A stretch of DNA of 64,000 nucleotides from Dioscorea cayenensis subsp. rotundata (Eukaryota > Streptophyta > Magnoliopsida > Dioscoreales > Dioscoreaceae). Shown here one piece after another: positions 7,261 through 55,834 of this stretch. The notes below the pieces were generated by a model. The model ran no database searches, was not told the DNA's origin, and was given only the letters and a program-made list of their open reading frames with translations. The position numbers were made by a program, and so were the translations under genes. Each line of letters begins with the position of its first letter. Within the stretch, counting starts at the first letter, position 1. The stretch spans positions 1,585,501-1,649,500 of the forward strand of contig NC_052474.1 of the NCBI RefSeq assembly GCF_009730915.1, in the 5' to 3' direction.

Positions 7261-7499
7261 TCATTTCGTTGTACAGTAGCAAAATGATATAAGTGACACA
7301 ACATAGAAACGCCCTTGTATTCATGTGTCCATTGCCATTTAGACTTAATTATCAATTATCCCAATTGTAAAATGACATACGGAGATGACACCACATCAGT
7401 GACATCTGCCATGCACTTAAGGGAAGAAGGTTATTGCGTAACGTAATCATTACTAGTTGATACCGGAACTTAATGTGATTAAAAATGTTTCAAAAATTT

Positions 7500-10200: not shown

Positions 10201-11765
10201 TTGCGATCCATGGACATGGACATGGCGTCTTCGGGGATGTTCGTCCCTCCTCAAACCCTAGGGACCGTGCTCTGTTGCATCTGTGGCGTGCCCATGGAGC
10301 CAAACCCGGCCAACATGTGCGCGCGCTGTCTCCGATCGCGCGTCGACATCACCGAAGGTCTTCCTCGCCACGCCGCCATCGTTCATTGCCCGGAGTGCAG
10401 CTCATGGCTCCAGCCCCCGCGATCATGGCTCCGGGCTGAGCTCGAGTCCCCGGCACTCCTCTCCCTCTGCCTGCGCCGCATCCACAAACCCCTATCTCGC
10501 CTCGTGCGCCTCGTCCATGGCGAGTTCGTCTGGACGGAGCCCCATTCCAAGCGAATCCACGTCAAGCTACGTGTCCAGCGCGAGGCCCTTCACGGTGCCA
10601 TCCTCGAACAATCGCATCTTGTCGAGTTCACCGTCCAAGACCGCCTCTGCGAGTCTTGTTCCCGCGCACAGGCATCTCCCGACCAGTGGGTGGCTGCTGT
10701 ACAGCTCCGCCAGCACGTCCCCCATCGGCGCACCTTTTTCTTTCTCGAGCAGCTCATCCTCCGCCACGGTGCCGCCGCACGCGCCGTTCGCATCAAAGAA
10801 ACCTCCTCCGGCGTTGATTTCTTCTTCGGTCACCGTAGCCATGCCATGAAGTTCGTCGAATTCGTCTCCGGCGTCGTGCCCGTCCGGAGACGCTCCGACA
10901 AACAGCTCGTGTCGCACGATACAAAGAGCAACAACTACAACTATAAGTACACATTCTCCGTAGAAATCTGCCCCCATCTGCCGTGAGGATTTGATATGCC
11001 TCCCTCCCAAAGTCTCCAACAGCCTGGGAAATCTCGGCCCCCTTGTTATCTGTGCTAAGGTCAGCAATAGCATCTTGCTTGTGGATCCAGAGACTCTCCG
11101 CACTGCTTTTTTAGACGCGGATGAATATTGGAGGACGCCATTCGGTGCTCTGCTCTCAAGTCGCCAGCTTGTGGAATTCATTGTGCTTGATGTGAAGGAA
11201 AAAGACCCCTGAAGTTACTGTCTCTGGCTCAAGGTATTGTCTTGCCCGTGTTGAGGTTGCGAGGATGTCTGATTTCGGCCAGAACGACACTACATTCGAT
11301 ATAAAGACTCATCTTGGGCATCTATTGAAAGAAGGAGATGTTGTGCTTGGTTATGATCTTTATTCCGCAAATAGCAATGATGTGGAGATGGGTAAATACA
11401 AGGGATTTGAGTTGCCCTATGCAATCCTGATAAAGAAGAGTTATGAAGAGAAACGGCAGAGGAAACATGGGAAACAGAGGAAATGGAGGCTGAAGAGGAT
11501 GCAGATGGAAGTGGATGATGGTGCTAGAGGTAGAGGTTCTGAGGAGAAGAGGAATAATGAGTATGAAGAGTTCTTGAGGGAATTGGAGGAGAATCCAACA
11601 GGAATGCTTGATCAAATGACTATTTACAAGAATAAAGATCACAGGCCATCCGAGACAGCATCTATGCTTAGTGGGGATGATGATTTGCCTTTGGATGAAT
11701 TGATTAGTAAACTTGAGTTGAGTGATGATGAGGAGGGGGAAGAGGATGAAGACATGGCACAATGA
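10201..11765 (+). CDS. NMD3: 60S ribosomal export protein NMD3, single exon, two +1 frameshifts
   Basis: NMD3 is the nuclear-export adaptor that binds the pre-60S ribosomal subunit and connects it to the exportin CRM1/XPO1. The N-terminal zinc-ribbon cysteines are C25/C28, C40/C43 and C63/C66, with C-x2-C near 147. The C-terminus is acidic (EEGEEDED), as usual. The reading frame runs 10201-10984 and breaks in a C5 run at 10971-10975. It resumes in the next frame to about 11211, breaks again at a C4 run (11206-11209), and resumes to the stop at 11763-11765. Removing one C from each run gives about 520 residues, close to known plant NMD3 (about 510-520). The segments at the two breaks (EICP then ICREDLICLPPKVS; VKEKDP then EVTVSGSRYCLA) join as in homologues. 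No intron is visible. The 5' half is GC-rich. Several in-frame ATGs lie in the first eight codons. It is either an intact gene with two sequence errors or a very young pseudogene. Confidence 0.88.
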
Positions 11766-12310
11766 TCTGTGCTAAGTCTTCTGTAAGTTGTTTCCTTTAT
11801 GTTGAAGTGTGCGATGTTATAGGTTTTGGCATGTTATCCGAAATTTTTGTTTACCAAATTTATGCTTGTTTTCTCTGTTCTTAATTTTATAATGTTTACT
11901 TGTTTCTCTTGCTTAGATATTTTATTGACCTTCTTTCACATGCACGTTTTCTTATGAGAGATGAAATTGCATACATTATATCAATCATTATACAAATAGT
12001 TGAAGGCCAGGATATAATATAGAGTTCTTTAAGTTTGTATATTGATTGAAAAAATGTTATATTTCTTTGTGTATTACTCGGTACATTTTGAACTTTCTGA
12101 ACAAGTTTATTGCACAAAAATATCTGAATGTGTCTTTATGTTGATGAAGTTTAATTCTTGACATCGTGATCGGTGCCAAATAAGTGTTGTGTATTGAATA
12201 AATGAAATGTTTTTCTTTCTATGTTGCCAGAATGATCTTGTCATGCTAAGTTCCTTTGTTGTACAGATGCTGTAGTCCCAGGTTTTTGAACTTCTGAACA
12301 AGTTCATCGT
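11766..12310. other. 3' flank of NMD3 with degenerate repeats
   Basis: AT-rich 3' UTR and intergenic DNA. A unit beginning TATCTGAATG at 12121 resembles units beginning TATCTGTAT at 14404 and 14532, beyond the LINE fragment. No coding potential was recognised. Confidence 0.4.
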
Positions 12311-14402
12311 CGCTCGAAATATTAATTTATGTTTTTCAATTTATGAACATCTTACTGGTCAGCGAGCCAATCCTCTCAAGTCTGAAATCTTTTTTCCTTC
12401 CAGATTTAATAACAGGCTTAAGGTCAGTATCTGTAATATCCTTCGTATTAAATCTGGGACTTTTCCTCTCAAATATCTGGGAGTTTTGATCTCTCCTAAG
12501 CGTCTTGCACTGACTGTTTTTCAGAATTTGCTGGATAAGATCAATAACTCCATAGCTCTTTGGAACCATTCTAGAATCTCTAAGGCTGGTAAAACTGTTC
12601 TCATTAACTCCTCCATTCTTTCTACTCCTATATACTATCTCTCAGTGTATCCTGTCCCTGACTCTGTGTTGGATGGCATTTCTAAAGCAGCTAGGTCTTT
12701 CTTTTGGGCTAAGGGTGGCAATAGAAAAGGCATGAATTCAGTGAGTTGGACAGATATTATGTTGGATAAGGCTGAGGGGGGTTTGTCTATTCGAAATCTT
12801 CGTATCTCTAAAAATTTCGTTGATGGCTAAAAAAATGTGTTCAAATATCTTAACAAGCATGATTCCATCTGGGTTGACATCCTTTACAACAAATATGGCT
12901 CTATAAATTTCTGGTCTAGTTCTATACCTGCTAGTTGCTCTTGGTTCTTTAGAGGTCTGTGCTTAACTGCTTCTCATATTAAGCCTTTCTTGTGGATGAA
13001 TAAGATTAACCCTATTTATACCAAGTTTCTTCTGGACCCCTGGTATTTTTGAGATTCCTATTGCTTTTTAAACCCTACGATCTTAACATGGATATCTCTT
13101 GAGAATTTATGCATCTCTGATTGTTTAAATGGGAACTCTTGGAATTTGAATAGCCTCCTATTGATCTTTGGTGACAACATTAATCTTACTCCTATTAAGT
13201 CTGAGAGAATCATTGCTGATTCCAATAACCTGTGGGTTTGGCTTCCTCAATCAAATAAGCACTCCATTCCTTCCAAGGTTTATCACCATCTCTGTAATGG
13301 TGATGCTTATTCTGATTCATGGGAAGGCTGGGCTATTTTATGGCATCTCAATATAGCTCCAAAGGTAAAGCATTTCATTTGGCTTCTTCTTCATAATGCT
13401 ATTAAAACCCATGAGTTCCTCTACCGATTAAACTTGGGGCCTCGCTCTTTCTGTGGTTTTTGTAATCTTGATTTTGAGACTGCAGAACATCTTTTTAATT
13501 TATGTCCAAAGGCTCAACGTATTTGGGGTTTGATTAATGCTGCTACTGGTAAAAATATTTCATTCTGCAATGATTTCACATCTGGATTCTGGCTCTGTTC
13601 TAATCAGAATAACTTTGACTTGATGTCTCAATCCTTTATTGCTGTGACTGCTTGGCTTATTTGGAAAGCAAGGTGCAATCTCATCTTCCAGAATACTCCT
13701 TTGGATTGCATTGCCCTTTCTTCACAAGCTGTGGCCCATGTCAGGGAGTACTCTTTCAATCAATCTTCTGTTATTGGTAGGAACCTTTTAATTAATAATT
13801 TCTCTTCTGCTGATGCTCCATTCCTGTTTGTTAATGCAGTCTGGAATATTGAATCTGTCAAGTCTGGAGTTGGCTTTTCCATCTCCAACTTCAACTCAAG
13901 CTTCGTTCTTGCCGGTTGCGGACCAATGATTGCAGAATCCTTTATTGTTGCTGAAGCCTGCGCCCTTCTTTTTGCGTTGCAGAGTACACTGAGTCAGAGA
14001 ATTATATGTAAACAGATTTTCCTTGCTAGCTATGATCTTTTAGCTGCCATAAACCAGAATTCCCGGCTTGCTGATTGGCGTCTTGAGACATTGATAGAGA
14101 ATATTTGCTATCATTTGGAAGAGTTCATGTTTCCCCAGATCCACATCATTCCTCTTCGTTGGATGAAGTCTTCTGTTGACTTGGCCATATTTGGTTCCAG
14201 CAAGCATGCTCTGATTTTGTATCATCAAGGAAGAGACCTTCCACATTGGCTTATGAAGCATTTTGTTTAATGCTTTCTTTAATTTTGAAGTCTGTTTTCT
14301 TTCTTTCAGATTCTATGAGACCTTGTAATATCTAGACAGTTGTAAGTTTTTTGTTTTTTGAATAAATAGCTTTCAGAGCTCTTTTCCCCCCAAAAAAAAA
14401 AA
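12311..14402 (+). mobile_element. 5'-truncated LINE (L1-type) with RNase H domain
   Basis: The element begins inside the reverse transcriptase, just past the YADD site, with LTGQRANPLKSEIFF near 12350. It continues through the RT thumb (FPLKYLGVLISPKRL; SKAGKTVLINSS). Next come the zinc-binding zf-RVT segment (CGFCNLDFETAEHLFNLCP) and an RNase H-like segment (VWNIESVKSGVGFSI, IVAEACALLFALQ). The 3' end carries an A-run at about 14389-14402 after an AATAAA-like signal at 14361. One stop near 12828 and another at about 13050 break the frame. The 5' truncation is typical of LINE insertion. It sits inside the degenerate repeat downstream of NMD3. No clear target-site duplication was found. Confidence 0.8.
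13146..14270 (+). pseudogene. LINE ORF2 C-terminal fragment (zf-RVT plus RNase H)
   Basis: The longest open piece of this LINE is 374 codons. It contains the zinc-binding box C-x2-C-x8-H-x4-C (CGFC to NLCP) about 110 residues in. An RNase H type-1-like domain of the plant non-LTR class covers the last 180 residues. Upstream pieces of the same ORF (12486-12830, 12837-13052) are separated by stop codons. It is a relic and not a cellular gene. Confidence 0.7.
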
Positions 14403-18921: not shown

Positions 18922-21900
18922 TCAGATGTCATTGAAGCCTCCAAATAGAAGCAAAGATGTGTTAGGTAAAAGCTGTTCTGTTCTCGGAAGGGGTTTTGCC
19001 TTCTGCTCCTTCTCCAGGACAGGAAAGCCGAGAGAGAGAGAAAGTGAAGCTGGAACATCATCATCCCCATGATTTACCCGCATCTTATTTTGATTATTTC
19101 GTCTGTCAAACAAAGGAAAGAACAGGGGCAACATCTCCTGTTTAGCAGGCTTCTTCTTGCCTCCCAAAGCTAGTTCTAGATCAGGCGAGTTATTTTCAGG
19201 GGCTTCTTCATCATCCGAAGAAAGAACATGAATGACATTCTCTGTTTCGGCACCACAAACAGAATTCAAATCCACCGGGAAGACATACCGTTCAGCACTT
19301 CTTGAGCTCTCGGCCATCATCGTCGGTTCACTAGAGATGCTATCTGTATGTAGCTGCGCGTTTGCAAAACTACCTAACAGAGGATTTATTTTGGATGATA
19401 ATCTACCACTCATATTCTCTTCTACAGAACCGCAGCTACCCGACATGCCGTTCTGCATGAAACTTCATCTTCTTGTTTTCTGTGTCATTATTTAGACATG
19501 TCAAATTTAAGCTGTCCTTCCACAACTTTGTTCCATCCATGGTCTTTGATGTTTCACCAGAAACCTGTGAGGCAGTATCCACTAACCACGAGCTTACACG
19601 TTTTCTCAGAGGCTTTGGTTCACAGCTGAGGTGGTCAGTAGTTGGCAGAAGTTTATCCTGGTCATTATCAAACAAAACGTCATTTTTCACACGGGCTGAC
19701 TTCTCCCTCATTTCTTTATTCCTAAAGCCGCATTCACTACCTGCACAATGAAGTAATACAGTAAGTACCAGGAATGCAACCAAAATTTTATTCTATGCAC
19801 TAAAACTGGAGAAAGGTCACCTTCTCTGCCATTTTTCAAAGTCCAATCAACAGGCGACGAAGGCAATGCATCATACTTGCTATCACTGAACTGTGCATTA
19901 TGTTGCTGTCCAACACCTCTTTCACCCTCAGAATAACTGCCCAAATTCATCTGCATGATCAACTGTGTTAATGCCAAGAAACAGCAGAGCATGATAGAAC
20001 ATAAAAAAGTAGATGTTACAGGCCACAAACAATGGATGCCCAGGTCAGCCTTTAATGCTAAAGTTTCAACAGAAGTTGATAATTACAGTCACTGATGATT
20101 CAGGCAGCATACATATGCAAGTTGCATAGTTCACAAGAGAACTTAATGAGCAAGAGAAGATTGTTGTTTTGCAGTAAAACAAATGTTAATGACAAGGAAC
20201 TCAATGTATAGCGATGTACATCAAGCATTATCCGCAAGGGACCACATAACGCCTGTACAGATGGATACTGGGTACATGTTCAAGAGTACCTACCTAGACT
20301 AAGGAAACATATTAAAACTATATAAAGAAATAACAATATTACACAAAGCCTTCAATAATCTAAAATATGGGGTGCATGTGGTTATTTCTCTTTAATAAAA
20401 GAAAAAGTTATGAAAAGACAATAAAATAATTGAAAAAAGGAATAAAAACAAGAACATGAAAAGATAAAGTTAGAGATCCATCCCATTCAATAAGAACTAC
20501 TGACTTGAACACTCTATCTTAATCAGCCATTCCATAAAAACAGCCCAAATGGAGCTGACTTGAGAACTACTATGCAAAATGATTTAAGATCCGAGATAGA
20601 GTATATGCAAAGCTAAGACTGTTTCTGAAAGTTGAGAGTAAACAGTGAGAAAATTAGTAAGGTTAATGTCAGATCAAAAGGTGGAAATGAATGGTTTAAA
20701 CAGAAGCACATAGAAATGATGTGACAACACTTCCCCTGAAGAATAAAATGTAAACTTAAACTTTCCAGATATGCCCACGACGAACCAGAGATAAAACCAA
20801 CCAAAAGCAAATGATTTCATAGACTTCAGAAGGTAAGCAAAATAAATTAACAAAAATAAAACCTTACCGGGTGAGTGACAACACATTCCTGCTGAAGGCA
20901 CAATTGCGGTGTGTTCATCTGAACCCCTGAATCAGGACAAGATTTTATATGAGTTTGCAGCGAGCCAGCTGTGGGACCTGATGGCCGAATAAGCAGACAT
21001 GTTTGTGTCTGGAAAATCATATCCTTATCTCCTGAAATTGAAACAGGCAGCATATCCACATCAGAACTGGACCCAGCTGCCTTTGCCTGTTGTGATATTT
21101 CAAACTTGGGTGAAGTCTTCTCGGGAATCTCATGCATATCTATATTCCTGGAGGTGGAAACTTCAGGAGCCAAGGGACAGACAGAAACAGAGACCAAAGG
21201 CTCAATCTCAAGACTGGACTGGCAAGGTTTTGGCAGGCTAGGCACTGAGTTTAAGCAATCTATGCTCCTTCCCCGAAATACACCCCAGAGGAAAAACAAA
21301 TTGTTCCAACCTGAAAAACAAAGATGATTTTGGTTATGCATGTATGTCCCAATATATAGGCATTAGTACTCAGTAGTTGCCTTAAGCCTTTTACTGAAAT
21401 GACAAATTGAACTTTTGATCCGTACGCTGGGATTTCTCTGGAAGCTTAACAGAGGGAAATATTAAAAGCTCAACCCCATCAATAATCCCTTTAAGGGCCA
21501 AGTCATTTTTCAGCATATTTTCCACCAGCTTCTTATAGTTCTTCTCATAACTGCATCAGATCAAGCAGACAAACTATGAAATATCTATACTTACCCAAGA
21601 TTTTAATGAACACAAATAACGGTACTATAGCCAAACCTTTCAATATCCTTTGCAAAGAAAAAAAGAGCAATATTATCTTCTTTAGGACTGGTCCTCAGAA
21701 ATGGTAGTGGCCATGTGTTTCGACTGGATACTTCTTCCAAAATGACTTTGCCAGGAAACTTGGTCACAACTTCAAGTACTTTAGGTGATGCACATGTTGA
21801 CAAGTGAGCTTGAACACCATTAAATGGTTCAGGAAGTCTAGCGGATCCCAGCACCTCAAAATCACCTCTGCAAGGTAAAAGAAAGGAAACACAATTCAGC

Positions 21901-24900
21901 TAAATGCTAAAAAAGGTCATTAGATTCATTGAGGTTGGAAAATATGATCAAGTGGCAACATAAACAGTAAGAGGAATTAATCATACTGCCATATGTATTC
22001 CAGCTCTGGAAACACAGAAACTCTTAATGGATCTTCAAGTGCAGAAGCACAATCAGGATGCATTTGACCAAAAGACTTCAAAGTCGATTTCTCCAAATTG
22101 CTGTTTGACTCTCCAGTTCCACCAGTGCTGGCTTCCACCAGACGCATGCCTTGCTGCTTTACATTGCTGGCACTTCCAGTTCTGCCAGGACCAGCATCAG
22201 AACTTCTAAAAGCCTCCGGCTGATCACTTGTACTCTCCAGGGAAGTCAAATTCCTCGCCGAACTTGAGCAATTTGGTGAAATATTTCTAGACTCTACTTC
22301 ACTTGCCACCGCTGATTCCTGGGGTTGATCAAGTGATCTGATATACTTTTGCATTTTAGTCTTAGAAACAACTGCTTCTACTGCATCTTTCCACTTGCAA
22401 TTTTTGCTGGTCCACTCCTTCGAACAACGGTCAGCAGATGGTTTCAGAGCAGAAACACGAAACTTGTCAATGGAACAGTGCTGAGTAGCATGACCTGTTT
22501 CATTGCATTTTTGGCAGCGCACTAGCCGGCAACTAGTTGCACCTACTTGCCTTGAACCATTTGAGAAACTGGAGTCCTTCATTTTCTCATCCTGTAAGGA
22601 GGATTCTGCAGCCTGAGGTAAACCGCGTAAGGGAACAGCCTCAGTGTGAATGTTTGAACTATCAACACAAGTACGAACACCTTCCTTCAAAGGAAGCATG
22701 CTTGGCTTTTGACATTCAGAACTGCAACCATTTAAAGATCGACTTCCAAAGGACTTTTGCGCATTCAATAGCCGTTTCTTCCCCTCATTGCATCCTAAAC
22801 AATAGGAAGACAATTAGTACTAACAAGAGAGACGCTTACAGAAAAAAGCAACAGAAAACAGGATGAACATATAATTAGAAATCCCTTAGCAGGAAAATAT
22901 TTGCTTGCCCGTGTCATTTGAGTCCTCAGATCCTTTGTCCGGACCAGGATTGTTTGCTTCAGACATGTTATTTCGACTTTCCATGGTAAGGAGAAGGCTT
23001 CAGGTCTGACTTTGAAGTAACTCCAGTATTTAATATTGATGCTGGACTAGCAAAGGTACGGTCCAACTTGAAGGAACTTTTCTTTTCTAGAGAATTTCTT
23101 TCCTTCAACTGTTTAGAAGCTCTTGAATCTTCTGCCCTGGGTGAATTAAAAGGTTGGATTTTAATTGCTTTCTCATTACCAGGGCGCCCTGAACCAACAC
23201 TTCGAAAGGATGCACTTTTACCCATTGTCCTGACAACTCTATCTTTTCTCACATCTATGGGAGAAATCTCTTTGGGGTTTTTTAAATTTGCAGGGATTTT
23301 CTCAATGAACTGTTTTACTTTTCCTTTTGTGCCTGAGTTATTGAAAGAAAATGATCTTGATAAAGACCCTGTAACAAAAAACAGTTCAAAAGCAAGGTTA
23401 AAGACTGCCCAAGATACATATGAGAAAATATAAATTATAATAACAACGAACAAACAGATAATATATTAGTAACCATAACACTGACCTCGAGAAGTCTGGA
23501 GCAGGGTTTGGTATTTGGAGGGATTAGAACCAGATGTTTGCGCACGAGCAAGTGCTTTAGGACTATTTACAGTTTGATTTACAGAGGATGATCCTGTCTT
23601 GGCTGGATTAGCTTTTTCTGCATCCAGGTTCTTAAATGAACTCTCTCGAGATAAGGCAATTCTTTTTCTTGGGCTTGCTGTCCCTATGGTCCCATCATTT
23701 GATTCAGAAAGCCTTTTATTATTCATGGAAAACACCTCCAAATTATCATCGTGATTCTTAGAAGAGAACTTTGGACTGTGTATTCCCTTAAGAACCCCTT
23801 TCACTTCTTGATCTGCTGCCTTCATCTCTAACTTAGGCAAAAGCTTAAGGTGGGAGGTTCTTTCAGAGTTTTCTCTATCTTTCATGGATTGAAATTTCGA
23901 CACTGCAGGTAATTCCTCAGTTTTATCTACTTTCTTGTTTTCAGCATCCTCCTTAAGCTTACATTCTTCACATAACCACTCACTTTCTGGAACTTTCACC
24001 ATCATTATCCGCATGCAGTAACTGCTCAACAGCAGGCAATCAATGTGTTGTACTCAGTTAGTATTCAACTGAGTAAATAAAGTAAAAGCACAAAGACGAG
24101 TTCAAAATCAGAAGGCCTTACATGTGCTCAGCTCCATCACTGCATCTACCACAGATGGCAAGACACTCCTCTCGACCTGCATCACCACATATATCACAGA
24201 CTTTTACCTGTATCACAACATTAGAAATCAGGCATCCTGAGCCAAAATGGGAAAACATGAAAAAACAAGCAGCGATCTATTCAAAAATTTATTATGCTAA
24301 AAGATAACAGATGGGCATAAAATGCAGGAACAAAATGCAGGAGGTGAAGAAAAATTATAGCTTGATCATGAATGCAAAGCTAAGGCACAACAAGGACATT
24401 ATTTGGCAAATAAAAAGGTCCTTGCGAATAAAAAAATAAGGGATAAGCAAAAGAATACATACATCCTCTATGTCGGATACAGAATTTTCACGTTCATTTG
24501 TTTGCTGATGCTGCTTTGCAGACCCCTGAATTTTTGAAGTCTCCATTGGGAGTACTTGACTTCTCAGATGGCTCAATCCTTGTACTACGCTGAACATCCT
24601 CAAGCCTTTCATTAGGGATGTTCTCAGTTTCCTTGGAACTTTCAGATTCTAATCGAGGACAATTGCTCTCAAGAGCTCCTAATGAAGAATTGCCTTTGAT
24701 TTGGCATGCTTTGCCCTCTGGATGGCTGGTTTGCATTGTTCCTTCAATACTGCTCGATACTATTGGTGCTCCTAATGAAAATTCTACCTTCTCCTTGAGA
24801 TAGTCAGAAGGCTCGCCCTGAAGTTAATGGTTTAAACTTACTTCCAGATCTTTTATATAAGAATTATGATGGGCAAAATGATTATTACATGAGGTAAAAC

Positions 24901-27900
24901 AAGTACACCTTACCTTCATGGAATTCACTTTCAAGGCAGGGATATTCACAAGATCAGAATTGCTAGAAAAGTCAGCTCTCGCTGCACAAGAGCCAAGACT
25001 TCTCTTTTGCAAAAAAGGTTCATTTAAGCAGGCACTTGGTGGGAGAGATTTTATCTCATCTTCCTTTATCTCACGCTCATGAGAGATATGGCACACTTCA
25101 ACCACAGGCTCTGTTTTAACTCCTTCAGCAACCTCATTTTTGGTTGACATCATACTATGGGTAGTTTCCTTCCTGACAACATCAGCATTAAGAAGATTGA
25201 CTGCACCATTGGCATCTGTACCACCAGTAAGGCATGAAATGTTGTCCCCATGGCATTCTAGCTGACGTTGCTCTTCATTTTGGTTTGTAAATGCCACCTG
25301 ATGTAAACTGGATGCAGAATAGCTACTTGAGGATAACAGGTGGCGAGTAGACACACTAGTTGCTTTTTGAAGGACAGCATCCTTTCCACCAGTCTCCCCT
25401 GAAAACATCTTTGATGGCATTTCTACATCATCAGATACATCAAATGTAGCATTTGGAGCTAAAGCTGCTTTACTTTCAGCATTTTCAGAAAATGAATCAA
25501 GGCTGGAACTGACACTTAATAGGTTACTTGATTCACTGGCTGCATGTTGCAGATCATCACATGCTCCACTCTTGTATATAGGATGAACATCGGCCACATT
25601 GAAAGAACAGCAATCAGTTTCATCTCTCATGAGCTTGACAGCAGTGTAACCACCATCTACATTTGACCCCATGACTGATGTGGACCTATTGAAGTGCATA
25701 CAGGATGAACAGGGAGCAGAACACACGTTGCACGTCCCAGATTCTACTCTTTTACAATAACTTTTCTTCATAACCATGTATTTTTGCTCAACTGGAAGTG
25801 TAACCTATAACATAAGGAAATTAACAAAATAATAGATTGCCATATTTTATGCTCCATGTAAGAGAACACATATGATTGATGCATGTGCAGATGCAAGCCC
25901 CACTATTGCAAGAGTTCTATATGAATGCCCTAACATAAAAAAATAGGTGAACAACAGTCCCCACAATAAGCAATGGCACAAACACATATGAAGAATTCTA
26001 CTTTTTTTAATTTATTTCCTTCAAGAAAACCAACATACAAACCCAATCACTGACCAAATTCTGAGGATTTGACACCATGAGTAACATAACAAAGGTCGCA
26101 TCTGCAGAAGCCAACCGTTAGAACAAGAGATATGGAAGCTTACCTCACTTAAAATATCAGGTAAAGACTGAAAGAGAATGTTTGGTTGGGGGATATAGGT
26201 ATCGCGTTACAAAAAAAAAAATTTCAATTTTGAGTCCAAGGGAAAACTTTTATCAAAGTTGACCTAAGTTTGACTTAATTAATACTAATCAAAATTAAAT
26301 ATTTTCGGATTAAAAATCTAGTTTTCTATATAAACATAAGTGCTTATTCATATTAATATTTTTGAGATTAATTAGGTTTATAAGATGTTATAAGATGTTT
26401 CAGTGGGGGAATAGTGCTTATCCCCCAACCAAACACGGCCTACAACTCAGATTTCAAGACTCTTTAAAACCAAGGATCTAGAAAACAGAAAGTTTGTATT
26501 GTTCAAAGTGCTTACTAAGGAACATGTATCAAATTAAAAAATTGGAGACAACTAGGGTAAGCATTGGGAAAAAAAAAAGAGAATGCTTGTTTCACCAAAA
26601 ATGATACACACATGCACGCACACAAACACACACAAAAGGTTTTAAACTTCAAGATAGATTCGAAACTTGTCTTTCTTTCCACATGGTAATCATTTGAAGT
26701 AAAAAAATGAAAGCACCTACATGTTGTCAAGGAGAAAAGGAAACCATCATTTTCTTTGTAACTCTTTCAGTGCAAGTTTCTCGCTGATCTAGTTTTGATC
26801 CAAAGTATCAGTAATGATTGCAATGTACACCATTTTCCCATCAAGAGTATTTAAAAGGAAATGCTAAACGCTTTCAATCAAATGCAGCATATTGTTTATT
26901 TACTGCCTCCACCTAGGAGAAAAGGAAAGCTAGTAACGACAAATCATATCATGATGCATACTAACAATGATAAACTTTTGAGCAAAAACTAGATCCGCCC
27001 ACTAAATGCTTGTGTTACTTCACCACCATTATTTGGAAACTATTATAAATTAAAATTTTAAGTGAAAAATTTATACTGTATCAGCCTTAAAAGATATAAT
27101 GCCAAAGACACTTATTATATTCATTTTTCCTCTTGAACAAAAGTTCATGAAATAATGTGATAAAACCCACAAAAATTGTCATTCAGGAAGTTTGCCTGCA
27201 ATTCATCTTCCACATATACACAACCTTCAACACAAGAAAAGAAGTCCAAGAGAATCCACGACTACATGAAAAATCAAATAAATAACCGTAAGATGGAAGC
27301 AAATTTGACAAAACTTCATACTAAGATTTGGAAGACCAAGAAAATTACCAGGTTTTTGTTATCCTAAGACTGAAATAAGTGACACTACAGAAATCTGACC
27401 TGCACACAGCCAAAAAGTATAAGGTTTACACAATTTTTCAAGAGGTTTACACAATTTTTTAAGAACTTCACAAATCCCTTGAGAGGATCAACTACATGCA
27501 AGAACTAATTTTGTGACAGTTACCTGTTATAGCTTTGGCCAAAATTACACATCAAAAGTATATCTGAGTGACATAAATTGAGTAGCTACGGTTAAATAAT
27601 GCATGTGACGTTAGTTTAGATGTGCCAGTCCATAAATTTGACTGCATACAATATCTATTCTTGCATGAATTAATTTTTTCAGGCTACAATTATGTACATT
27701 GATTTCGAATTCATGAAGCACCAAAACATGCCTATAAAACAAAACCAGAACATTCAGGTAAGCCAGAATTGAAGATTTAGTTCAGAGCACGCATATAAAT
27801 ATCAAATCATTTCAACATTCATTAAAACAAATCTCTACAAGGATTTTGTTTATTAGTATGCATTACGCAGTCAGTTATCCCAGCTGGAGGACAACATGAA

Positions 27901-35216: not shown

Positions 35217-36139
35217 ATTGTATTATATATTATATAATTTTTATTTAAAATTTTAAAAATAGAATGGAAAATCTGTTTGGTTCATGTTCTAAATTTTTAA
35301 TTTGCAAAAATTTTAGCTACAACGTTAAAATTTGAGTTAAAATTTCTCATTTGAAACCACAACCATAAAAAAAAAAAAATAGTCCATGTTCAAACAATTG
35401 ATGTGTTAAGCTCCAAATTGAATTGCTTACTCATAATTATATTGTTTGAATGAGAGATTTTATAATAAAAAATCATAGTTACTAAAAGCTTGTTATCAAT
35501 ATTAACTATTTTTTTAAAATTTAATTTAACTTAGTATATAAATAACGTCACTTCTATGGAAAAGATATTTGATAATGGCTGAGGGAAGTGAGGGATGACT
35601 TTGACCATTCCAAATATTTTTTTGTTTTTTGATTTTTAATTTTTTTTCATAGCCCATTATCTATTTTTATTCGCACTCAAAACGTTTTTTTTTGGGGACA
35701 CGCTTTGTCTACTATAATTAATAAATCAATTGTATTTTTTTTTCTTGTAATTAATTATGATGTTGAGTTGCTGATCAAACTTAAAAGTCAAAATTAGATC
35801 TTAATCCATCCTCTCATCACTTGGCTTTGTGTATACATCCAACAACCATTCAAGATCACAAAAAAGGTGATTGAAATAGAACAACAGACTTTTACAGGTT
35901 GCTTTATGCCCTACCTCATTTTCATTTTGACTTTTTTTTTTTATATAGTTTACTTTCACAAATTATGATAAAAAAATTTCAAATAAAGTATTTAAATAAA
36001 TGTTGACACGTCATATATGTTTAGATTTGAATCGATTTGATATGAAACATTTATTACAGAGATACCATATCTAACAAAAAATACCACTAAAAAAAAATTC
36101 ATATTAATTAGAGATAAAACATTAGGAATAAAAAGCTCT
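35217..36139. repeat. Direct repeat copy A (partner at 39301-40149)
   Basis: About 920 bp closely matching 39301-40149 in the same orientation, 4.1 kb downstream beyond the scaffold gap. Shared landmarks are TCTGTTTGGTTCATGTTCTA, CAAACAATTGATGTGTTAAG, GGACACGCTTTGTCTAC and ATGTTGACACGTCATATATG. This copy has longer homopolymer runs than its partner. Confidence 0.85.
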
Positions 36140-36544
36140 GCGAAAGGGTTATGTTCTTTCTGAATCTGGTTTATCTCCTCACTTGTTCCAATACCCACCA
36201 TGGCCCGTACAGTGCCCAGAGGGTGGCTTTGTTGTACAGCATGCATAAACACTTACTCTTCAGATTCTGGTTCTTTAGTTATTAGTTTCCTTGGTTTAAA
36301 CCAGTGTTTGATTTACCAGATTGCCGGTAAACTTGGTGTGTGGTTGTCATAATTGTGGTTACACTGGCATTGATTACAAAACGATATGCATGAAAACCAC
36401 AGTACCTAGTAAAACTTTGAACTGCGAAACCACTAGATGCTTTAATCAAACACCTAAAACAAGAATGCACACAACCTTGAGAAATGCCGATACAAGTAGA
36501 GGAACATCCCAAGGCATTTTCTCTTATGTTGACATAATCCAATT
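36140..36544. other. Sequence left of the scaffold gap, unidentified
   Basis: The match to the 39301-40149 copy stops at 36139, and this stretch is different. It is less AT-rich. A minus-strand frame runs through it and has no recognisable domain. Function unknown. Confidence 0.3.
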
Positions 36545-37544
36545 NNNNNNNNNNNNNNNNNNNNNNNNNNNNNNNNNNNNNNNNNNNNNNNNNNNNNNNN
36601 NNNNNNNNNNNNNNNNNNNNNNNNNNNNNNNNNNNNNNNNNNNNNNNNNNNNNNNNNNNNNNNNNNNNNNNNNNNNNNNNNNNNNNNNNNNNNNNNNNNN
36701 NNNNNNNNNNNNNNNNNNNNNNNNNNNNNNNNNNNNNNNNNNNNNNNNNNNNNNNNNNNNNNNNNNNNNNNNNNNNNNNNNNNNNNNNNNNNNNNNNNNN
36801 NNNNNNNNNNNNNNNNNNNNNNNNNNNNNNNNNNNNNNNNNNNNNNNNNNNNNNNNNNNNNNNNNNNNNNNNNNNNNNNNNNNNNNNNNNNNNNNNNNNN
36901 NNNNNNNNNNNNNNNNNNNNNNNNNNNNNNNNNNNNNNNNNNNNNNNNNNNNNNNNNNNNNNNNNNNNNNNNNNNNNNNNNNNNNNNNNNNNNNNNNNNN
37001 NNNNNNNNNNNNNNNNNNNNNNNNNNNNNNNNNNNNNNNNNNNNNNNNNNNNNNNNNNNNNNNNNNNNNNNNNNNNNNNNNNNNNNNNNNNNNNNNNNNN
37101 NNNNNNNNNNNNNNNNNNNNNNNNNNNNNNNNNNNNNNNNNNNNNNNNNNNNNNNNNNNNNNNNNNNNNNNNNNNNNNNNNNNNNNNNNNNNNNNNNNNN
37201 NNNNNNNNNNNNNNNNNNNNNNNNNNNNNNNNNNNNNNNNNNNNNNNNNNNNNNNNNNNNNNNNNNNNNNNNNNNNNNNNNNNNNNNNNNNNNNNNNNNN
37301 NNNNNNNNNNNNNNNNNNNNNNNNNNNNNNNNNNNNNNNNNNNNNNNNNNNNNNNNNNNNNNNNNNNNNNNNNNNNNNNNNNNNNNNNNNNNNNNNNNNN
37401 NNNNNNNNNNNNNNNNNNNNNNNNNNNNNNNNNNNNNNNNNNNNNNNNNNNNNNNNNNNNNNNNNNNNNNNNNNNNNNNNNNNNNNNNNNNNNNNNNNNN
37501 NNNNNNNNNNNNNNNNNNNNNNNNNNNNNNNNNNNNNNNNNNNN
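36545..37544. other. Scaffold gap of exactly 1000 N
   Basis: A run of undetermined bases of round length, the usual mark of an arbitrary gap between two contigs. True distance and contig order are unknown. Any open frame crossing it is meaningless. Confidence 0.99.
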
Positions 37545-38449
37545 CAACGTTTGAAGACGAAATACAACGACAAGTAAAAGTTGAACACATATTATTATTT
37601 TGAACAAACAAGAGGCTTGGTTTGATTTTCAAATTTTCACCCTGGCCTGTCCACCCCTGCAGAAAAGCTTTTCCCTTGTCGGTTGTTCTTCCTTGAGGCC
37701 TGGGTCGATTTGATTGCAAACCAGCACGATCAACCGTCACCACAGCCCGCTGGCCCGATAGATCTGCCTGGTTCCGAACCAAACCAGCCTGGGATCAACG
37801 AACGGTCAACGAAAAATGTTCAACGTCCATCCAACAAGTCCGGCGATTCACGTCGAACATCAAAACATTCCAACCGGTTATTTGACCAAACCATAACGAA
37901 ATGAACACTGTCGCCCACCAGCTCATCAGCGTCAGGCAGCAGCTGGCACTTCTCAACTTATTTGCCTCACGGCGGCTTATCGCGTCACTCTTTTGACAAT
38001 TGAAGAATGCCACGCATCATTTTTGTTCTTTATTTTGATAGCACAATCATTATTTACAGGCCCGGCCCGTACAGCGACATGATGAACCGTTGGTTACGCC
38101 AACGACGGCCATCTCCAAAGAGTATTTCGATACCGATATCCGCGATAACGTATTTCGTTTCTTCAACTTGCTGTCACCCCATAATGCCGCGTACGCCTGT
38201 TCACGAGCCTCGACAACATCGTCAACGCTTTGGCGATTGCACCGAAAATCATATCTATTATAACATAACGGAAGCCAAACCCTTTCCTGCCTGTTACGTA
38301 CATTCGGTTGAATCATCTTCGTACTGCACCACCGATAACAATCAGTCTGATGTGAAATACTAGTTAAATAATATTGTGTTAATATATTATTCTATTTATA
38401 AATGAATAACCAGTTACAAAACACGAGCAGTCAGCAAAAATAAAATGCA
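37545..38449. other. CpG-rich unidentified segment at the contig edge
   Basis: Directly after the gap the composition changes: many CG dinucleotides and less AT than the neighbours. One plus-strand frame from about 38060 reads EPLVTPTTAISKEYFDTDI and then DNVFRFFNLLSPHNAAYA before a stop near 38263, preceded by an acceptor-like TTATTTACAG. I do not recognise a family. It could be an exon fragment, a transposon piece or foreign DNA at a contig end. Confidence 0.4.
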
Positions 38450-38871
38450 GATTTCAGGTCTCATCAAAATCAATGATACTTACCAGGGTCAATCCTATTA
38501 TTATTATCGTGCACTTTGTCTGTTGTTAGAAACATTTACAAACAAAATATACATCATCGTTAATCTCAATTGGCTTCAGTTGGCCGCAAGATTTTTCCCC
38601 GTTTGTTGAATCAAAAGTATCACTATGGATAACCTTTCTGCATAATTCATTAGGCAGCCATTGCAGAAGTCAATCTTTGTTTGTACAATAATACAACAAA
38701 TGATAGTAATCAATCTCTCTCGGTAGTTTGTAGCCATTGGTTTCTTTCCAATGTTCAGCAATACAATTTGAAAGGGAGAAATAGTGACATTCTTTCCTTT
38801 TGCCCATTAAAGTAAAATGTAATCCCTTACAACGAGAAAGAGCATCAAAAGAAGATGAGGAAATAATGCAA

Positions 38872-38905
<34 letters not shown>

Positions 38906-39300
38906 CATAACTTTTACAAGAACAAGAATAAAGTAGTATAGAAAAAGCACTCTCCCTTTAACCTTCTTTTATGCCTTTTTATTTTGAAGTCATCTCATCT
39001 TATTTCAGAATCAGATTATTTCCTGATCCTCCCCTATCATAGTTTAATACTTATTTTTTAACCACAATATAAAAAAATAACATCATATGAGGATACACCA
39101 TGTCAGGCTGTGTTAGAAGAAGACCGTATCGGGCTAGTTCTGGAACCATACGAGACTTTTTTATTTTTGAGCACCCCAGTGTCTTTTCTTTACACACTTA
39201 CACACTGCCTCAATCAAAGGTGGTCTTCAGTTATAAATGATCAATTTTGAGAAGTTGATCATAGACTTTGCGTAAAGCATGCATGGTTATTTTATTGCTA
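38450..39300. repeat. Inverted-repeat arm B (left), partner at 40370-41290
   Basis: The reverse complement closely matches 40370-41290. For example AAAGCACTCTCCCTTTAACC near 38944 pairs with GGTTAAAGGGAGAGTGCTTT near 40731. The (TA)n/(TG)n tract near 38872-38906 pairs with the one near 40790-40820. Differences are mostly small insertions and deletions. The arm has no recognisable gene. Confidence 0.85.
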
Positions 39301-40149
39301 TTTGCTATATTATTATATAATTTTACTTAAAATTTTAAAATAGAATGGAAATCTGTTTGGTTCATGTTCTAAATTTTAATTTGACACAAACCTTTAGCTA
39401 CAAACGTTAAAATTTGAGCTAAAGCCCTCATTTGAAACCACAACCACACACAAACAGTCCATGTTCAAACAATTGATGTGTTAAGCTCCAAATTGAATTG
39501 CTTACTCATAATTATATTGTTTGAATGAGAGGCCTTTATAATAAAAATCATAGTTACTATAAAAGCTTTGTTATCACGGCTAACTCATAAAATTTAATTT
39601 AACTTAGTATATAACAACGTCACTTCTATGGAAAAGATATTTGATAATGGCTGAGGGGAAGTGAGGGATGACTTTTGACCATTCCAAATATGTGATTTTT
39701 AATCATAGCCCATTATCTATTTTATTCGCACTCAAAACGTGGGGACACGCTTTGTCTACATACTAATTAATAAATCAATTGTATCTCTTTCAATTATGAT
39801 GTTGAGTTGTTGATCAAACTTAAAAGTCAAAATTAGATCTAATCCATCCCTCTCATCACTTGGCTTTGTGATACATCCAACAACCATTCAAGATCACAAA
39901 AGGTGATTGAAATAGAACAACAGACTTTTACAGGTTGCTTTATGCCCCACCTCATTTTCATTTTGACTATATAGTCTTTCACAAATTATGATATTTCAAA
40001 TAAAGTATTTAAATAAATGTTGACACGTCATATATGTTTAGATTTGAATCGATTTGATATGAAACATTTATTACAGAGATACCATATCTAACAAAAATAC
40101 CACTAAAAAAAATTCATATTAATTAGAGATAAAACATTAGGAATAAAAA
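39301..40149. repeat. Direct repeat copy A' (between the two inverted arms)
   Basis: A second copy of 35217-36139 in the same orientation. Most long T or A runs of the first copy are shortened or replaced here, giving about 75 bp less. It forms most of the spacer between the two inverted arms. Confidence 0.85.
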
Positions 40150-40369
40150 ATATGCGAGACTAAATTATAATTTAAGATTTCAAATTAATTTAGATTTATC
40201 AAATATGTGTATTGCATTCTCTAGGGGCATGGTTTTGCTATGATGTATTTCTCTATTTTTATCTTGTGTGCTATATATATCACGTGATCCATTAGAAGTA
40301 GACTCGTTTGTTTATAACTTGTCTCATTTAAGAATAAATACGCGCTTTTATCTATTTTTATTTATAATC

Positions 40370-40786
40370 AAATATAAATATAACCAAATGGCAATAAAAC
40401 TAACCACGCACGCAAAGACCCATGTTTCCACGATCAACTCTCAAAATCGATCATTTATAACCGAAGCACCTACCTTCGATTGAGTAGCGTAAGTGTGTGT
40501 AAAAGACACTCGCAATTTAACTCCAAAAATAGTCATCTCACGTATTGCCCTACTAAGCTTATTCTTCTTTGGCCTTCTTCTAACACACCTGATCATGACG
40601 TGATCCTCATACGACGTTATTTTTATATGTGGTTAAAAATAAGTATTAAACTACGATAGTGAGGACTCGGGAAATAATCTGATTCGAAATAAGATGAGAT
40701 GACTTCAAAATAAAAAGGCATAAAAGAAGGTTAAAGGGAGAGTGCTTTTTCTATACTACTTTATTCTTGTTCTTGTAAAAGTTATG

Positions 40787-40820
<34 letters not shown>

Positions 40821-41290
40821 TTGCATTATTTCCTCATCTTCTTCTTTTGATGCTCTTTCCTCGTTGTAAGGATTACATTTACTTTGTGGGCCAAAGGAAA
40901 GAATATGTCACTTTCTTCTCCCTTTCAAATTGTATTGCTGAACATTGGAAAAGAAAACCAATGGCTACAAGCCTACCGAGAGAGATTGATTACTATCATT
41001 TATTTATGTGTGTACAAACAAGATTGACTTCTACCAATGGCTACCTAATAGATTATGCAGAAAAGTTATCCTTAGTGATGTCTTTTGATTTAACAATGTA
41101 GGGGGAAAAAAAATCTTGCAGCCAACTTCAAATAATTGAGATTAACGATGATGTGTGTGTGTATATATGTTTTGTTTGTAGTATTTTTTAAATAAATGTT
41201 TCTAACAATACAATATTTTCTTTAAAATGAGATAGGAATTATTTTGATAATAAATAATAGGATTATTTTAAATTTAAATTATCATTGATT
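40370..41290. repeat. Inverted-repeat arm B (right), partner at 38450-39300
   Basis: Reverse-complement partner of the left arm. The arms are about 850-920 bp with a spacer of about 1.07 kb, so the whole would fold as a long hairpin. A frame of 119 codons at 40742-41101 exists only because it is AT-rich and has no recognisable domain. Confidence 0.85.
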
Positions 41291-42823: not shown

Positions 42824-43341
42824 GAGTAATGATATTTTTACCGAATAGATTTCCCGAATGACGTGGATGTTAAGTTGGTATCCATGTCAACATCCACGTT
42901 ATTCTTTCGTTATTTTTTTTAAAAAAAAATTTAATTTCTCTTTATTATCTAAATCCCAAATTTAAACATTTAATCGTAAAAGATAAACATATAAATGATA
43001 AACCGAAAACCCCTCCCTAAACCATAGATTAGAAATCACAAACCCCTGCTTGTTTAGGGTTTAGGGCTTAGGATTTAGAGGTTAGGCATGTTAGGGTTTA
43101 GTATTTATTATTTAGGGTTTTTAGATTTTTAGTTTATAGATTTTGGAGTATTTGGGTTTATGATTTTAGATATAGTTTTATAATTTTTTTTAATTTTAAG
43201 TATTTAAGAATTTTTAAAGTTCAAATTTGAAGTTTATATAAAAAAAATAATGACGTGGATGAGGATGTGAATGACAAGTTGGGCATCCACGTCATTCGAA
43301 AATCTATTTGGTAAATCAATTCGATAAAAATAACATTGCTC
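42824..43341. mobile_element. Mutator-like MITE with 9-bp target-site duplication
   Basis: A 518-bp non-coding element. The left end starts GAGTAATGATATTTTTACCG. The reverse complement of the right end starts GAGCAATGTTATTTTTATCG, and the similarity continues inward to CGAATGACGTGGATG. It is flanked by a perfect direct repeat CTTTTCGAT (42815-42823 and 43342-43350). Nine-base target duplications and long inverted ends are typical of Mutator-like elements. The interior carries several TTTAGGG/AAACCCT-like pieces (about 43015-43125). No transposase is present. Confidence 0.85.
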
Positions 43342-47696: not shown

Positions 47697-47742
<46 letters not shown>

Positions 47743-49884: not shown

Positions 49885-52800
49885 TCAGGCACTGCCCACT
49901 TCCAGTTGGGAGATAATACTGATGAAAACCTGGAAACCTTGGCACATATCAGAGAACAGGCAATACTCATTCCTTGCATGGTATGTAGCCATTATTCCTG
50001 TAACAGTAGAACAACAAGAACAATAGAGCAAAATATATTCAATAAGTTGAGGTCACTGTAAACCATTGCCAAAGGGAACCCGAACGTGAATTTCAAAATT
50101 TGATAATTATTTTTCATCTCTTGCTTTCGGATGATATCAAATCAATACAAAGGCAATATCAGATATTTAAATGGCATTTTCCCCTTTCGATAATTTGAAA
50201 ATATCATATGAGCTAATATTTAGTTCTTAGGGAAAATCACCAGAAGAGATAGACACCCAACTTCTCACATCCCCACAAACTTGTTGAGACCTGAATCTTA
50301 GAAACCACCCCACCACCCAACCACACACACACACAATTTACTAATACCTCAGACAAGCTTTGTAATCTAGAAAACTTCCATTTTTCAAAGTGGCTTTCTT
50401 ACCTCCCTAGCTGATAACATTTCTCAAGTTTTCTAGAAAAATCTGAGTAATGCCCACAATCATCCTACGGATGGGGCAATCAAAGAAATGCTACTAAAAT
50501 TGATAGCATGTCTTTTTTCATTGTTATTTTTATTTTTAATTTTGCAGAACAGGACAAGGAAGACACATACCATAACCGGATGTTTGCACATCAAAGCCTT
50601 CATCCTAGAAAAAAATCATGAAGAGTGAGTCAGCAACATTGGAAAATGGATAACGAAATGAATGAGTGAAAAGAGGTGGGATGGCAACCTGCAACTCTCG
50701 AATCAAAGGCAAACTTCCTGTGATTGAGTAGGGGCTTGACATATCCAACCACTCTCAGTCGCTTTACATAAGACATGAAACCCAGGTGATTCAAGATTAC
50801 ATGCAACACCAGACATCATCGCTTCATCAAAACTGATACTTAGCCTACCAAAAATCAAGGGGCATAAAATGAGTATCTCCAGCTTATCAGTATCTACAAA
50901 GAAATTGAGCACAATCAGAAAACTACAAGATATCAATACATAATAATTCAATGATCATTCCTGGATTCATTAATGTCAGGAACTCAGGAAGTGTATGTTT
51001 TGAGTTTTTAATTTTTGATAAAAATGCTACAGGCCACCTTGGTGAATTTTCAAGAGAGAAGTTTGTTCTTTTGAGAGGAAAAAGAAATACTATACCCATG
51101 GTATAATCAGTATTCAAACCTATCTGCAATTGCAGTCCCTACAATTGAAAACGAATTAACTATACAGTCTATACCCATGGTATAATCAGTATTCAAACCT
51201 ATCTGAAATTGCAGTTTCTACCATTGAAAATGAATTAACTATAGAAGTTGAAATTTGGTCATACTTTCCCTCAAATTTTTCATCTGGGAAGCACATAATT
51301 TGAAACTGGCCCTCGGGAATCCAGCTTCTCTATATTTGCATTTAAATCATCTACATATTCCTGCAATTTCTTGACCACATCGGTTGTGCTGCATCAAACA
51401 GAATCAAATTCAGGTTTTTCCCTATTATGTTAACCTGAGATGAACAGTCAAAACACAAAAAGTAAAAAGATATGCTCACCTGTGAGAATGGGAGTTAACC
51501 TGCAAACACAACAAATAGCAAGTTACATAAAAATTACAACCAGAAAATAGCAACTAAACCAGCAATGCAAAAAATTGAGTCAGTATTAACAGAAGCACAT
51601 GAATGATCATAACTATAGTACAACATTATAAAGGAATAATAGCGTGTTTCCTCCAAACTACTAATTTAGTTGGAAAATCATCATTTGAGCTTTGGAGTCA
51701 TTCCAGACTGAAAGAACTGTGATTGAAAGAAGCACAGGAAGAAGCAAAGGCCACCCTTAAAGTGAAGTGAAATCTCTTTCTGAAGCTGAGATATATCAAG
51801 ATAACAGAAGGAGAAAAGAATATAATCAGAGATTCAAGAACTTGATTCTTTAAAAAGCATGAAATTAACTATACCCTGCCAGTTTCTATTATAGAGTAAG
51901 TTTTATTTAGTTTAGTATAGAAAAAATTTTGAGGATCTCTATGGATCCTGAACTTGAAGAGATACTTCTGAAGCAATCAACTGGACTAGTTCATAACCAT
52001 TATATTGAAATCTCAATCCCGATAAGATTTTGACTAAAGTATGCCCACAAACTTTTGGAAGCACTTGATAATAGCTTCTATCATACAACTTTATGTTAAG
52101 AAATCAGGAATTAATGAAAATTTAAATGAAAGGTGATAATATCTAAAGAACATACCCCTCTATCTCTTATGGTTCTTCTGTAGAACCTCAGACTGAGCAG
52201 CAGATGATAACAGTAACCAGTGTTAGTTCCTATCCACATGAAATTTATCCAGCATATTTCTTAATCTAATCTTTCAACTGGAATCACATGGTAAGAAGAC
52301 TAATAATTTTGTGATTACTACTTCTGCATAATATTACAAATGTGGACAGGTATGGTCTAAAAAAATTTAAACTAACAAGACAAAAGCAATTTAGAAAATG
52401 ATTCAGGTAATTTCTTGAGACAGGGTGAGAAAAAGTTATCATACCTTACATCCCTGATATGTGTACACTTGCACCTGGAATCTGATCTGAGCACCTCACC
52501 TCCAGGATCTGCAGTACATGTTTAATCAATAGGGACAGAAACAATTAGAACTACCCTCTTTTCAGCTACCGGTATCACACACACTTTCCTACCAGTAATA
52601 ATCGAGCAATCAAAGTTAGATACAAATGCAACTTACAGCCCCATTGAGTTGGTTTTAATGGTAGATGGTGTCGACCGTAGACTTCTTCCTTAGGATGTGG
52701 AGGAAAAGTCTTTATAGAATCTTGACTGGATTTCTCTAAAGTGCCTCCATGGCTAACTCCAAAGGATTAATAGCCTGCAAACATTATATATAAGCAGCAA

Positions 52801-54697
52801 GCCTTTACCATTCAAGATTACAACCATGGCAAATATTACCTTGTTCCATCTAAATGAGGATGGAGACATTGAAAATGACAACCAAATAGACAAACCTTGG
52901 TTCATATCTGAATAAACACACTGAAATATGCACAGCAACTTGAGAAACCACATCTAAAAGAGAACATTTCACCTCTATGGATAGATCCTAAAATTTCTGC
53001 CTTAACCAATATGCTGGCAGGATTAAATTCCTCATTCACCGTTTGTTAGATAGACTTAAGGTATAGGAATTGACACAGTTGGCAGCAGTACAACAGAATT
53101 TTAATATAAAAATTTACAGGACAAACATAATGAATTGTGACCAAACAAGCATCATACTCATTTGTTTTTGGAGTTTCTGAGGGAGAAATATATCCAGCTT
53201 CCTCTTAGGGGATGTTCATCTGGGGAAAGTGGTTTTAAAATGAAGAACTAGAGGAAAGTGACCTACCAAACTGGTAGTTCTCATGCTTATTTTGTACAAG
53301 TGAACAAAATATGGGCAAAGGTGGGGGAGGGGAAGTAAGCTTATATCAAAATTCACTTCTCCCACTTAGTGATCTTGAAAGTGAGGTTTAGTTCAAAATT
53401 AAGATAAAGTGAACTTCGGTGAGGAAAGCGCCACTTCCTCTCTAAAGTGGAAATCAATCCACTTTAATGATTTTCCCACCATTTTAGAGTAAATGAACCA
53501 AAAGTATACATGAAGGCCTATAATTTTTTTTTAACACAATGAGTAATGGGAAATTTCACTCAGACACAAGAACTCAATCAATATATTCAACAGACAATAT
53601 CAAGACCAATGAACCAGTGAACAGGCAAATCGTTCTAGAACACTCAAGCAGATGGCCCCTTGAGCAGCATGAAACTTTAAATCCTTTCCTAATAGAAAAT
53701 CCAAACAAGGCCAACAATGATTTTACTTGTGTTGTTTAATAAATTTTGACAACAGAAAGTTTATGACAGATCAATGGAGAGCAAATGTATTTGATACTAT
53801 GTAACAGTGAAGGTTCAAGATGTACTACCTTGTGAGGCAGACCACTGTGGAAAAGCTTCCCAGTGGCTCGAAGCTTCCAAGCAATCATCCCTCCAGTGCC
53901 AATACAGGGTTGCTTATCTGCAGTATCGATCCAAAACCTGCGAAACATCCAAGAAAACCATGAGAGATTCTCAAAACCAAATATCATATCCGTAATCAAA
54001 ATCGATCTACAGATACCCATCAGCGATCACTCACAGCGGGCCCTTCTTGAGTTTGTTAAGAAGGCCATCCTTGACCAGTGCATCAACCCCAATGCCAAGA
54101 ACAGAGGAATTCTCCTCGTTGGCGATGAAGACGGCGACAACCGTGTTCTTGAGCGCTGGCCTGGTCTCCCCGAGCCGCCGCATAAGCTCCGCCACCAGCG
54201 CGACGTGCCCTAGGCAATCCGTCGTCCCCCGTCCTCTCAGCTTATCCCCATCGACACTCAACGAGAACGGATCAAAATCCTAAAAATTCCAAGAAAATTC
54301 AACAAAAACCAAGAAAATCAAGAAAAAGAGAAAACCCAAGAAAAGAGTTCGGGATCGAGGATCACCCAATCGGAGGGATCAGCGGTGACGACATCCATAT
54401 GGCACCCGACGAAGGAGAGAATGCGATCGGGATCACAGCCAGGGTACTCAGCGATGATATTCCCACGGCCATCGGAGTAGGAGACGTGGGAGACAATGAG
54501 AGGGCCACCACCGGTGGAGGTGGAGAGAGGGAGGAGAACATCAAGAACGTGGCGGGCGACGCGATCCTCTTTGGGGGACCAGTTCCGGCGGGGTTGTTTT
54601 GGACATGGCGGGCCTCACCGATGATCTTGGAGAGGAGGGAGACGTAGGAGCCACGATCGAGAGGTCCCACGAGATCCTTCAGAGAAGAGGACTCCAT
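49885..54697 (-). CDS. Acetylornithine deacetylase (M20 metallohydrolase), frame broken by many small insertions
   Basis: Hydrolyses N-acetylornithine to ornithine and acetate in arginine/polyamine metabolism. Ten exons from the 5' end: 54366-54697, 54035-54279, 53829-53937, 52637-52774, 52450-52508, 51480-51499, 51265-51388, 50689-50844, 50571-50604, 49885-49997. Recognisable M20 pieces in order: GCHMDVVTADPSDW (metal His and Asp); DKLRGRGTTDCLGH (bridging Asp); ANEENSS (catalytic Glu pair); FWIDTADKQPCIGTGG; AINPLELAMEAL; SISFDEAMMSGVACN; and the end MATYHARNEYC with metal His, then DMCQGFQVF. Splice borders are kept. Extra single bases shift the frame in exon 1 (54573-54577 and 54585-54586), exon 4 (52653-52656, 52704-52707, 52738-52740), exon 7 (51286-51288) and exon 8 (50731-50734), and exons 5 and 6 are also disturbed. 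An upstream in-frame ATG at 54718 is possible. It is either a real gene with poor sequence or a young pseudogene. Confidence 0.85.
51091..51245. repeat. 79-bp tandem duplication in an intron
   Basis: TATACCCATGGTATAATCAG at 51091 recurs at 51170. Both copies are followed by TATTCAAACCTATCTG and ATTGAAAA(C/T)GAATTAACTAT. Differences are few, so the duplication is fairly recent. It lies in the intron before exon 8 of the acetylornithine deacetylase gene. Confidence 0.8.
53215..53515. mobile_element. Possible MITE remnant in acetylornithine deacetylase intron 3
   Basis: The left part contains GTTCATCTGGGGAAAGTGG (about 53213-53232). The reverse complement of the right part gives GGTTCATTTACTCTAAAATGG (about 53480-53500). 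Imperfect matching of the ends and a size near 290 bp suggest a small DNA transposon. No target duplication was identified. Confidence 0.3.

Positions 54698-55769: not shown

Positions 55770-55834
<65 letters not shown>

Follow-up and report, generated by a model that had tools for sequence, protein, structure and literature searches.

Clustered frame changes in three genes of a Dioscorea scaffold probably reflect residual indel errors of the assembled consensus

Sequencing errors and pseudogenes in described systems

Insertions prevail among the errors of PacBio sequencing. For the PacBio RS instrument, PMC4719071 lists rates per 100 bases of 15.57 for indels and 1.10 for substitutions and describes these errors as little affected by homopolymers (section 8). 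According to the same paper, the errors of early Nanopore reads are mostly deletions, and 454 sequencing errs in homopolymers. PMC12007338 describes long-read draft assemblies with gene-fragmenting errors (Kastor), in which indel frameshifts, many of them at homopolymers, mimic pseudogenes; most of the indel errors in a MinION draft of P. syringae treated there were false deletions. As a reference for the mutation spectrum we used Arabidopsis, for which 236 resequenced samples (magnetic-field-treated samples and controls pooled) yielded 946 SNVs and 109 indels, the latter comprising 47 insertions and 62 deletions (PMC10731980).

We analysed a window of 64,000 nucleotides from Dioscorea cayenensis subsp. 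rotundata (contig NC_052474.1, positions 1,585,501 to 1,649,500; all coordinates below are those of the window). The DNA of the window is nuclear and of plant origin, and a gap at 36545-37544, exactly 1000 N long, marks it as part of a draft scaffold. The reading frame changes within three of its genes, which code for NMD3, an AIPP2-like PHD-finger protein and an acetylornithine-deacetylase-like M20 protein. The locus resembles these long-read drafts in its indel frameshifts. Unlike in the P. syringae MinION draft, however, most of the changes are insertion-like when the genes are read by homology, and the changes are clustered. With ordinary plant pseudogenes the locus shares frameshifts inside otherwise recognisable genes, but nonsense codons, which pseudogenes are expected to accumulate in proportion to their indels, were not met here. 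We conclude, with a probability of roughly 0.8, that the frame changes are residual indel errors of the assembled consensus, distributed very unevenly, and that the genes are probably intact in the plant.

Frame changes in the NMD3 and AIPP2-like genes

NMD3 is a ribosome-export factor and probably essential. In the window it is encoded on the forward strand by a single exon (10210-11765) that passes through three successive reading frames. These frames carry the Pfam domains PF04981, NMD_SH3 and NMD3_OB, respectively, so that the N-terminal, SH3 and OB domains of the NMD3 family are present in the proper order, and the read-through protein matched the solved NMD3 structure 6lu8 (residues 11-501, 3.6e-132). 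We delimited the frame changes by the stop codons of the old and the new frames. The resulting intervals, 10964-10986 (23 nt) and 11196-11212 (17 nt), each confine one change of the +1 class, a class that may also include 2-base deletions. The first change is of +1 rather than -2, because an X inserted at the junction is surplus in comparison with 6lu8. The two extra bases originally predicted for NMD3 correspond to these two +1-class changes. The first interval includes the runs AAA (10964-10966) and CCCCC (10971-10975), and the second includes AAAAA (11199-11203) and CCCC (11206-11209). No nonsense codon was present among the 514 NMD3 codons in the frames read.

The AIPP2-like PHD-finger gene lies on the reverse strand at 18922-25804 and was modelled with 11 exons; a further 5' exon near 29.6 kb likely belongs to it, outside this model. 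Its product matched the SPOC-like domain of AIPP2 (Pfam SPOC_AIPP2, PF23121; 163.9 bits, 2.8e-48) and the PHD finger (PF00628; 26.0 bits). While eight of the 11 modelled exons match their flanking intron phases as read, those of 355 nt (24463-24817), 460 nt (22909-23368) and 819 nt (18922-19740, the last exon) do not. As had been claimed from the sequence, each of these three is one base too long, i.e. +1 modulo 3 for its flanking phases. The changes lie inside 24494-24648, 22968-22999 and 19436-19464, respectively. All of the 1,623 codons in the frames read were free of nonsense. With exon boundaries picked at such sites, nine of the ten introns are of the GT-AG type and one is GC-AG, the GC donor of the 460-nt exon being located at 22907-22908.

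It had also been proposed that the shifts reside in short homopolymers. For NMD3 this agrees with the CCCCC and CCCC runs included in the intervals. In the AIPP2-like gene, by contrast, the homopolymers named earlier are possible sites but their involvement is unproven, because the intervals are 155, 32 and 29 nt wide and contain either more than one run or none longer than three bases.

The acetylornithine-deacetylase-like gene

The third gene occupies 49885-54697 on the reverse strand, comprises ten exons and reaches its final stop. Its read-through product carries Peptidase_M20 (70.5 bits) and M20_dimer (44.5 bits), as an M20 deacetylase should; the original label of a plant acetylornithine deacetylase is putative. 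The strict NCBIfam cut-offs for acetylornithine deacetylase were missed (TIGR01892, 60.9 against 297.7 bits; TIGR01910, 102.3 against 217.6 bits), both models having been built for bacteria and archaea. All nine introns are GT-AG, with GT or AG at 18 of 18 dinucleotides. Splice sites are therefore kept in this gene as well as in the AIPP2-like gene, in agreement with the original prediction; since the boundaries of both genes were picked at splice dinucleotides, the tally shows only that such sites are present in phase.

On the homology reading, we infer from inspection by eye approximately 17 frame changes in the deacetylase gene, 13 of the +1 and four of the -1 class. Exon 1 (54366-54697) has a net shift of +2 modulo 3, corresponding to two +1-class changes on this reading or to a single -1. 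Exons 2-3 (53829-54279) and 9-10 (49885-50604) leave the frame unchanged, and these four exons, 501 nt in total, are all in phase. The other changes, 15 of the 17, fall into exons 4-8 (52774-50689), which contain 502 nt of coding sequence. By eye, we assigned three +1 and one -1 to exon 4, two +1 and two -1 to exon 5, two +1 to exon 6, two +1 and one -1 to exon 7, and two +1 to exon 8; the assignments in exons 5 and 6 are the least certain, and one change in exon 8 is likely a 2-base deletion. A few of the joins were guided by relatives. No nonsense codon was met by eye in the frames read.

A fewest-changes, reference-free path (Viterbi) gave only five changes in this gene, four of them of the -1 class, because the path merges neighbouring changes. 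The training data of its codon table included the clean genes as well as parts of NMD3, of AIPP2 and of the first LINE described below. Elsewhere, the path returned +1 twice in NMD3 and +1 three times in the AIPP2-like gene. The predicted number of about ten changes in the deacetylase gene corresponds to neither reading, and the claim of one likely deletion in all is at odds with the four -1-class changes of the homology reading.

We compared the fit of both readings to the M20_dimer profile. The 44.5 bits of the many-changes read-through extend over positions 1-105 of the 107 profile positions, whereas the fewest-changes path reached 26.4 bits (1-44) and the sequence without changes 24.3 bits (1-39). 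With exons 4-8 alone, the many-changes reading still matched M20_dimer with 21.7 bits (cut-off 21), and neither the fewest-changes nor the no-change version of these exons gave any M20 match. This support needs exact joins, because the score falls to 26.3 bits when an X is placed at most junctions. A scan of genome contigs in which residues 1-261 of the read-through served as query gave a single locus, which at 30% identity is too distant for counting indels, and a search of solved structures with the part from exons 4-10 returned a best M20 match of only E = 0.66.

Read by homology, the three genes together have 22 changes, 18 of the +1 class and four of the -1 class; if the least certain deacetylase exons 5 and 6 are left out, 14 of 16 are of the +1 class. 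On the fewest-changes reading the +1 share is 6 of 10. The bias depends on the reading, because the fewest-changes path puts four of the five deacetylase changes into the -1 class. The proposal that nearly all changes are +1 insertions is therefore retained as a majority on the homology reading, but the bias is weaker than had been claimed. When the classes are treated as insertions and deletions and our own deacetylase reading is adopted, 18 of 22 differs from the Arabidopsis insertion share of 47/109 with P = 2e-4, a value that is partly circular because open frames were sought.

Consensus error, rival explanations and the remainder of the window

The changes are distributed very unevenly along the scaffold. 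Outside deacetylase exons 4-8, we counted 7 changes in 9,860 nt examined (~0.7 per kb). At this rate, the probability of at least 13 changes in 502 nt is below 1e-15, and that of at least 8 changes is 5e-9. If the homology reading is adopted, this dense patch is incompatible with one error rate throughout, and a uniformly unpolished consensus would not distribute its errors in this way. The DGAT2, YtxH-like, CPBP and zinc-finger genes had been described as unshifted; indeed, the Viterbi path placed no event in the 2,587 nt of them that it covered (two of the genes only in part), but chance alone would give this result with P = 0.13. The DGAT2 label is backed by a Pfam match, and for the CPBP label a Pfam match was absent. 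A 75-bp tandem duplication (51090-51164 and 51169-51243) is located in a deacetylase intron within the patch. Its copies are 93% identical, with five mismatches and no gaps, as compared to 4.6 indels predicted by the patch rate (P = 0.01). Since the duplication is free of gaps, the changes either cluster even inside the patch or occur there at a lower rate than estimated. A census of homopolymer runs along the window showed no clear error signal.

If the changes are consensus errors, the assembly would have retained one surplus base at most of the sites, in several cases within a run that thereby became longer, and polishing would have been missing or unsuccessful there. A low background rate of this kind could have produced the two changes in NMD3, the three in the AIPP2-like gene and the two in deacetylase exon 1, and a local collapse of quality at ~52.8-50.7 kb could have produced the remaining ones. 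Sequencing or polishing error would then be the cause, and the reads would be expected to contradict the consensus. We most likely deal with a matter of data quality and not with new biology. The data do not support a cause as specific as the unpolished long reads named originally, as the fit to each platform is incomplete. We considered naming PacBio, 454 or another platform and refrained from doing so: Nanopore and MinION are deletion-prone, PacBio RS has little homopolymer bias, and none fits fully.

The strongest competitor, which we nevertheless regard as unlikely, is that some or all of the three genes are genuine recent pseudogenes, e.g. redundant copies from a genome duplication with intact ones persisting elsewhere. 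Under the Arabidopsis spectrum (PMC10731980), about 7.5 nonsense codons would be expected to accompany 22 indels in the three genes, and none was met (P = 6e-4). This test treats the classes as insertions and deletions, depends on our own reading of the deacetylase gene and is partly circular, as open frames were sought. Taken gene by gene, the probability of zero nonsense codons is 0.003 for the deacetylase gene, 0.56 for NMD3 and 0.36 for AIPP2. Almost all the power of the test thus comes from the deacetylase gene, since no nonsense codon is expected in either of the others. The earlier argument that missing nonsense codons speak against neutral decay holds over all 22 changes but is powerless when NMD3 or AIPP2 is considered by itself, and the five changes in these two genes are too few to exclude recent inactivation. 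Likewise, the insertion excess that distinguishes the homology reading from decay fades on the fewest-changes reading. Over the three genes, however, nonsense codons and splice-site losses did not occur in proportion to the indels, and the deacetylase gene combines its 17 changes on the homology reading with no lost splice site. Uniform decay is furthermore disfavoured because exons 2, 3, 9 and 10 of this gene are clean beside heavily changed exons.

Much less probable still is that the shifts in the AIPP2-like gene represent unrecognised introns or an alternative splice pattern instead of indels. Cut-outs of 70-400 nt with GT..AG borders reopen the frame in each of the three exons (32, 30 and 137 cut-outs), and one of them, 19597-19453 (145 nt), has the donor GTAAGC and the acceptor ATGCAG. 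Such frame-restoring cut-outs are commonplace, however, with 166 of 70-600 nt in NMD3. Moreover, 19597-19453, the best candidate, is exon-like in composition: it contains 24% T, whereas introns in the two modelled genes have a median of 41%, and its open frame has a coding-like score of 0.12 (introns: mean -0.27, sd 0.12); two hidden-intron candidates in the 460-nt exon likewise have ~25% T. We give hardly any credence to the idea that the indels are real and stem from a locally intense, insertion-biased and substitution-poor mutational process striking several neighbouring genes.

Consensus error as the preferred explanation has practical consequences. Taken at face value, the sequence would have NMD3 and a metabolic enzyme called lost, and annotation would split these genes or drop them. 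Claims of gene loss from this assembly need a check at the level of reads, especially around 50.7-52.8 kb and next to the gap of 1000 N.

Non-coding repeats adjoin this gap (35224-41154). Two repeat pairs there contain 81 gaps and 92 mismatches, as compared to 27 gaps and 91 mismatches in the five other repeat pairs of the self-comparison (P = 4e-5). The closest pair has 37 gaps versus 22 mismatches, and 18 of its 24 single-base gaps are in runs. Gene decay cannot explain an indel excess in non-coding repeats, although part of it might stem from natural variation of run lengths in AT-rich DNA. The repeat pairs sit 9-15 kb away from the dense patch and are therefore evidence that such stretches occur in the scaffold, not that the patch belongs to them. 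For an excess of indels over substitutions in coding and non-coding DNA alike speak the missing nonsense codons and the two gap-rich repeat pairs; against it speak the gap-free 75-bp duplication within the patch and the partial circularity of the nonsense test. As to the individual repeats, 35224-36134 and 39306-40149 are near-identical with mainly indel differences, and the former has A/T-run expansions of several bases that are absent from the latter. An inverted repeat of ~0.8 kb (38551-39332 and 40356-41154) consists of an almost identical core of ~200 nt and diverged flanks.

The window also contains two LINEs, which we dropped as evidence on errors because the Viterbi and by-eye counts disagree. 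A LINE remnant 3' of NMD3 (zf-RVT, RVT_3; 12276-14272) has homopolymer runs that, by eye, look expanded around 12807-12832 and 13051-13095; in this first LINE the Viterbi path found no change, as opposed to five by eye, four of them of the +1 class. The second LINE lies on the reverse strand at 59485-62270 (RVT_1, zf-RVT) and has frame changes and a stop, with four +1 changes according to Viterbi and at least three changes plus the stop by eye. A tRNA gene with an intron-like insert was detected on the minus strand at 7499-7581 (Rfam RF00005, 35.9 bits), where ARAGORN reported none. Finally, a perfect (AAT)21 microsatellite is located at 55770-55832.
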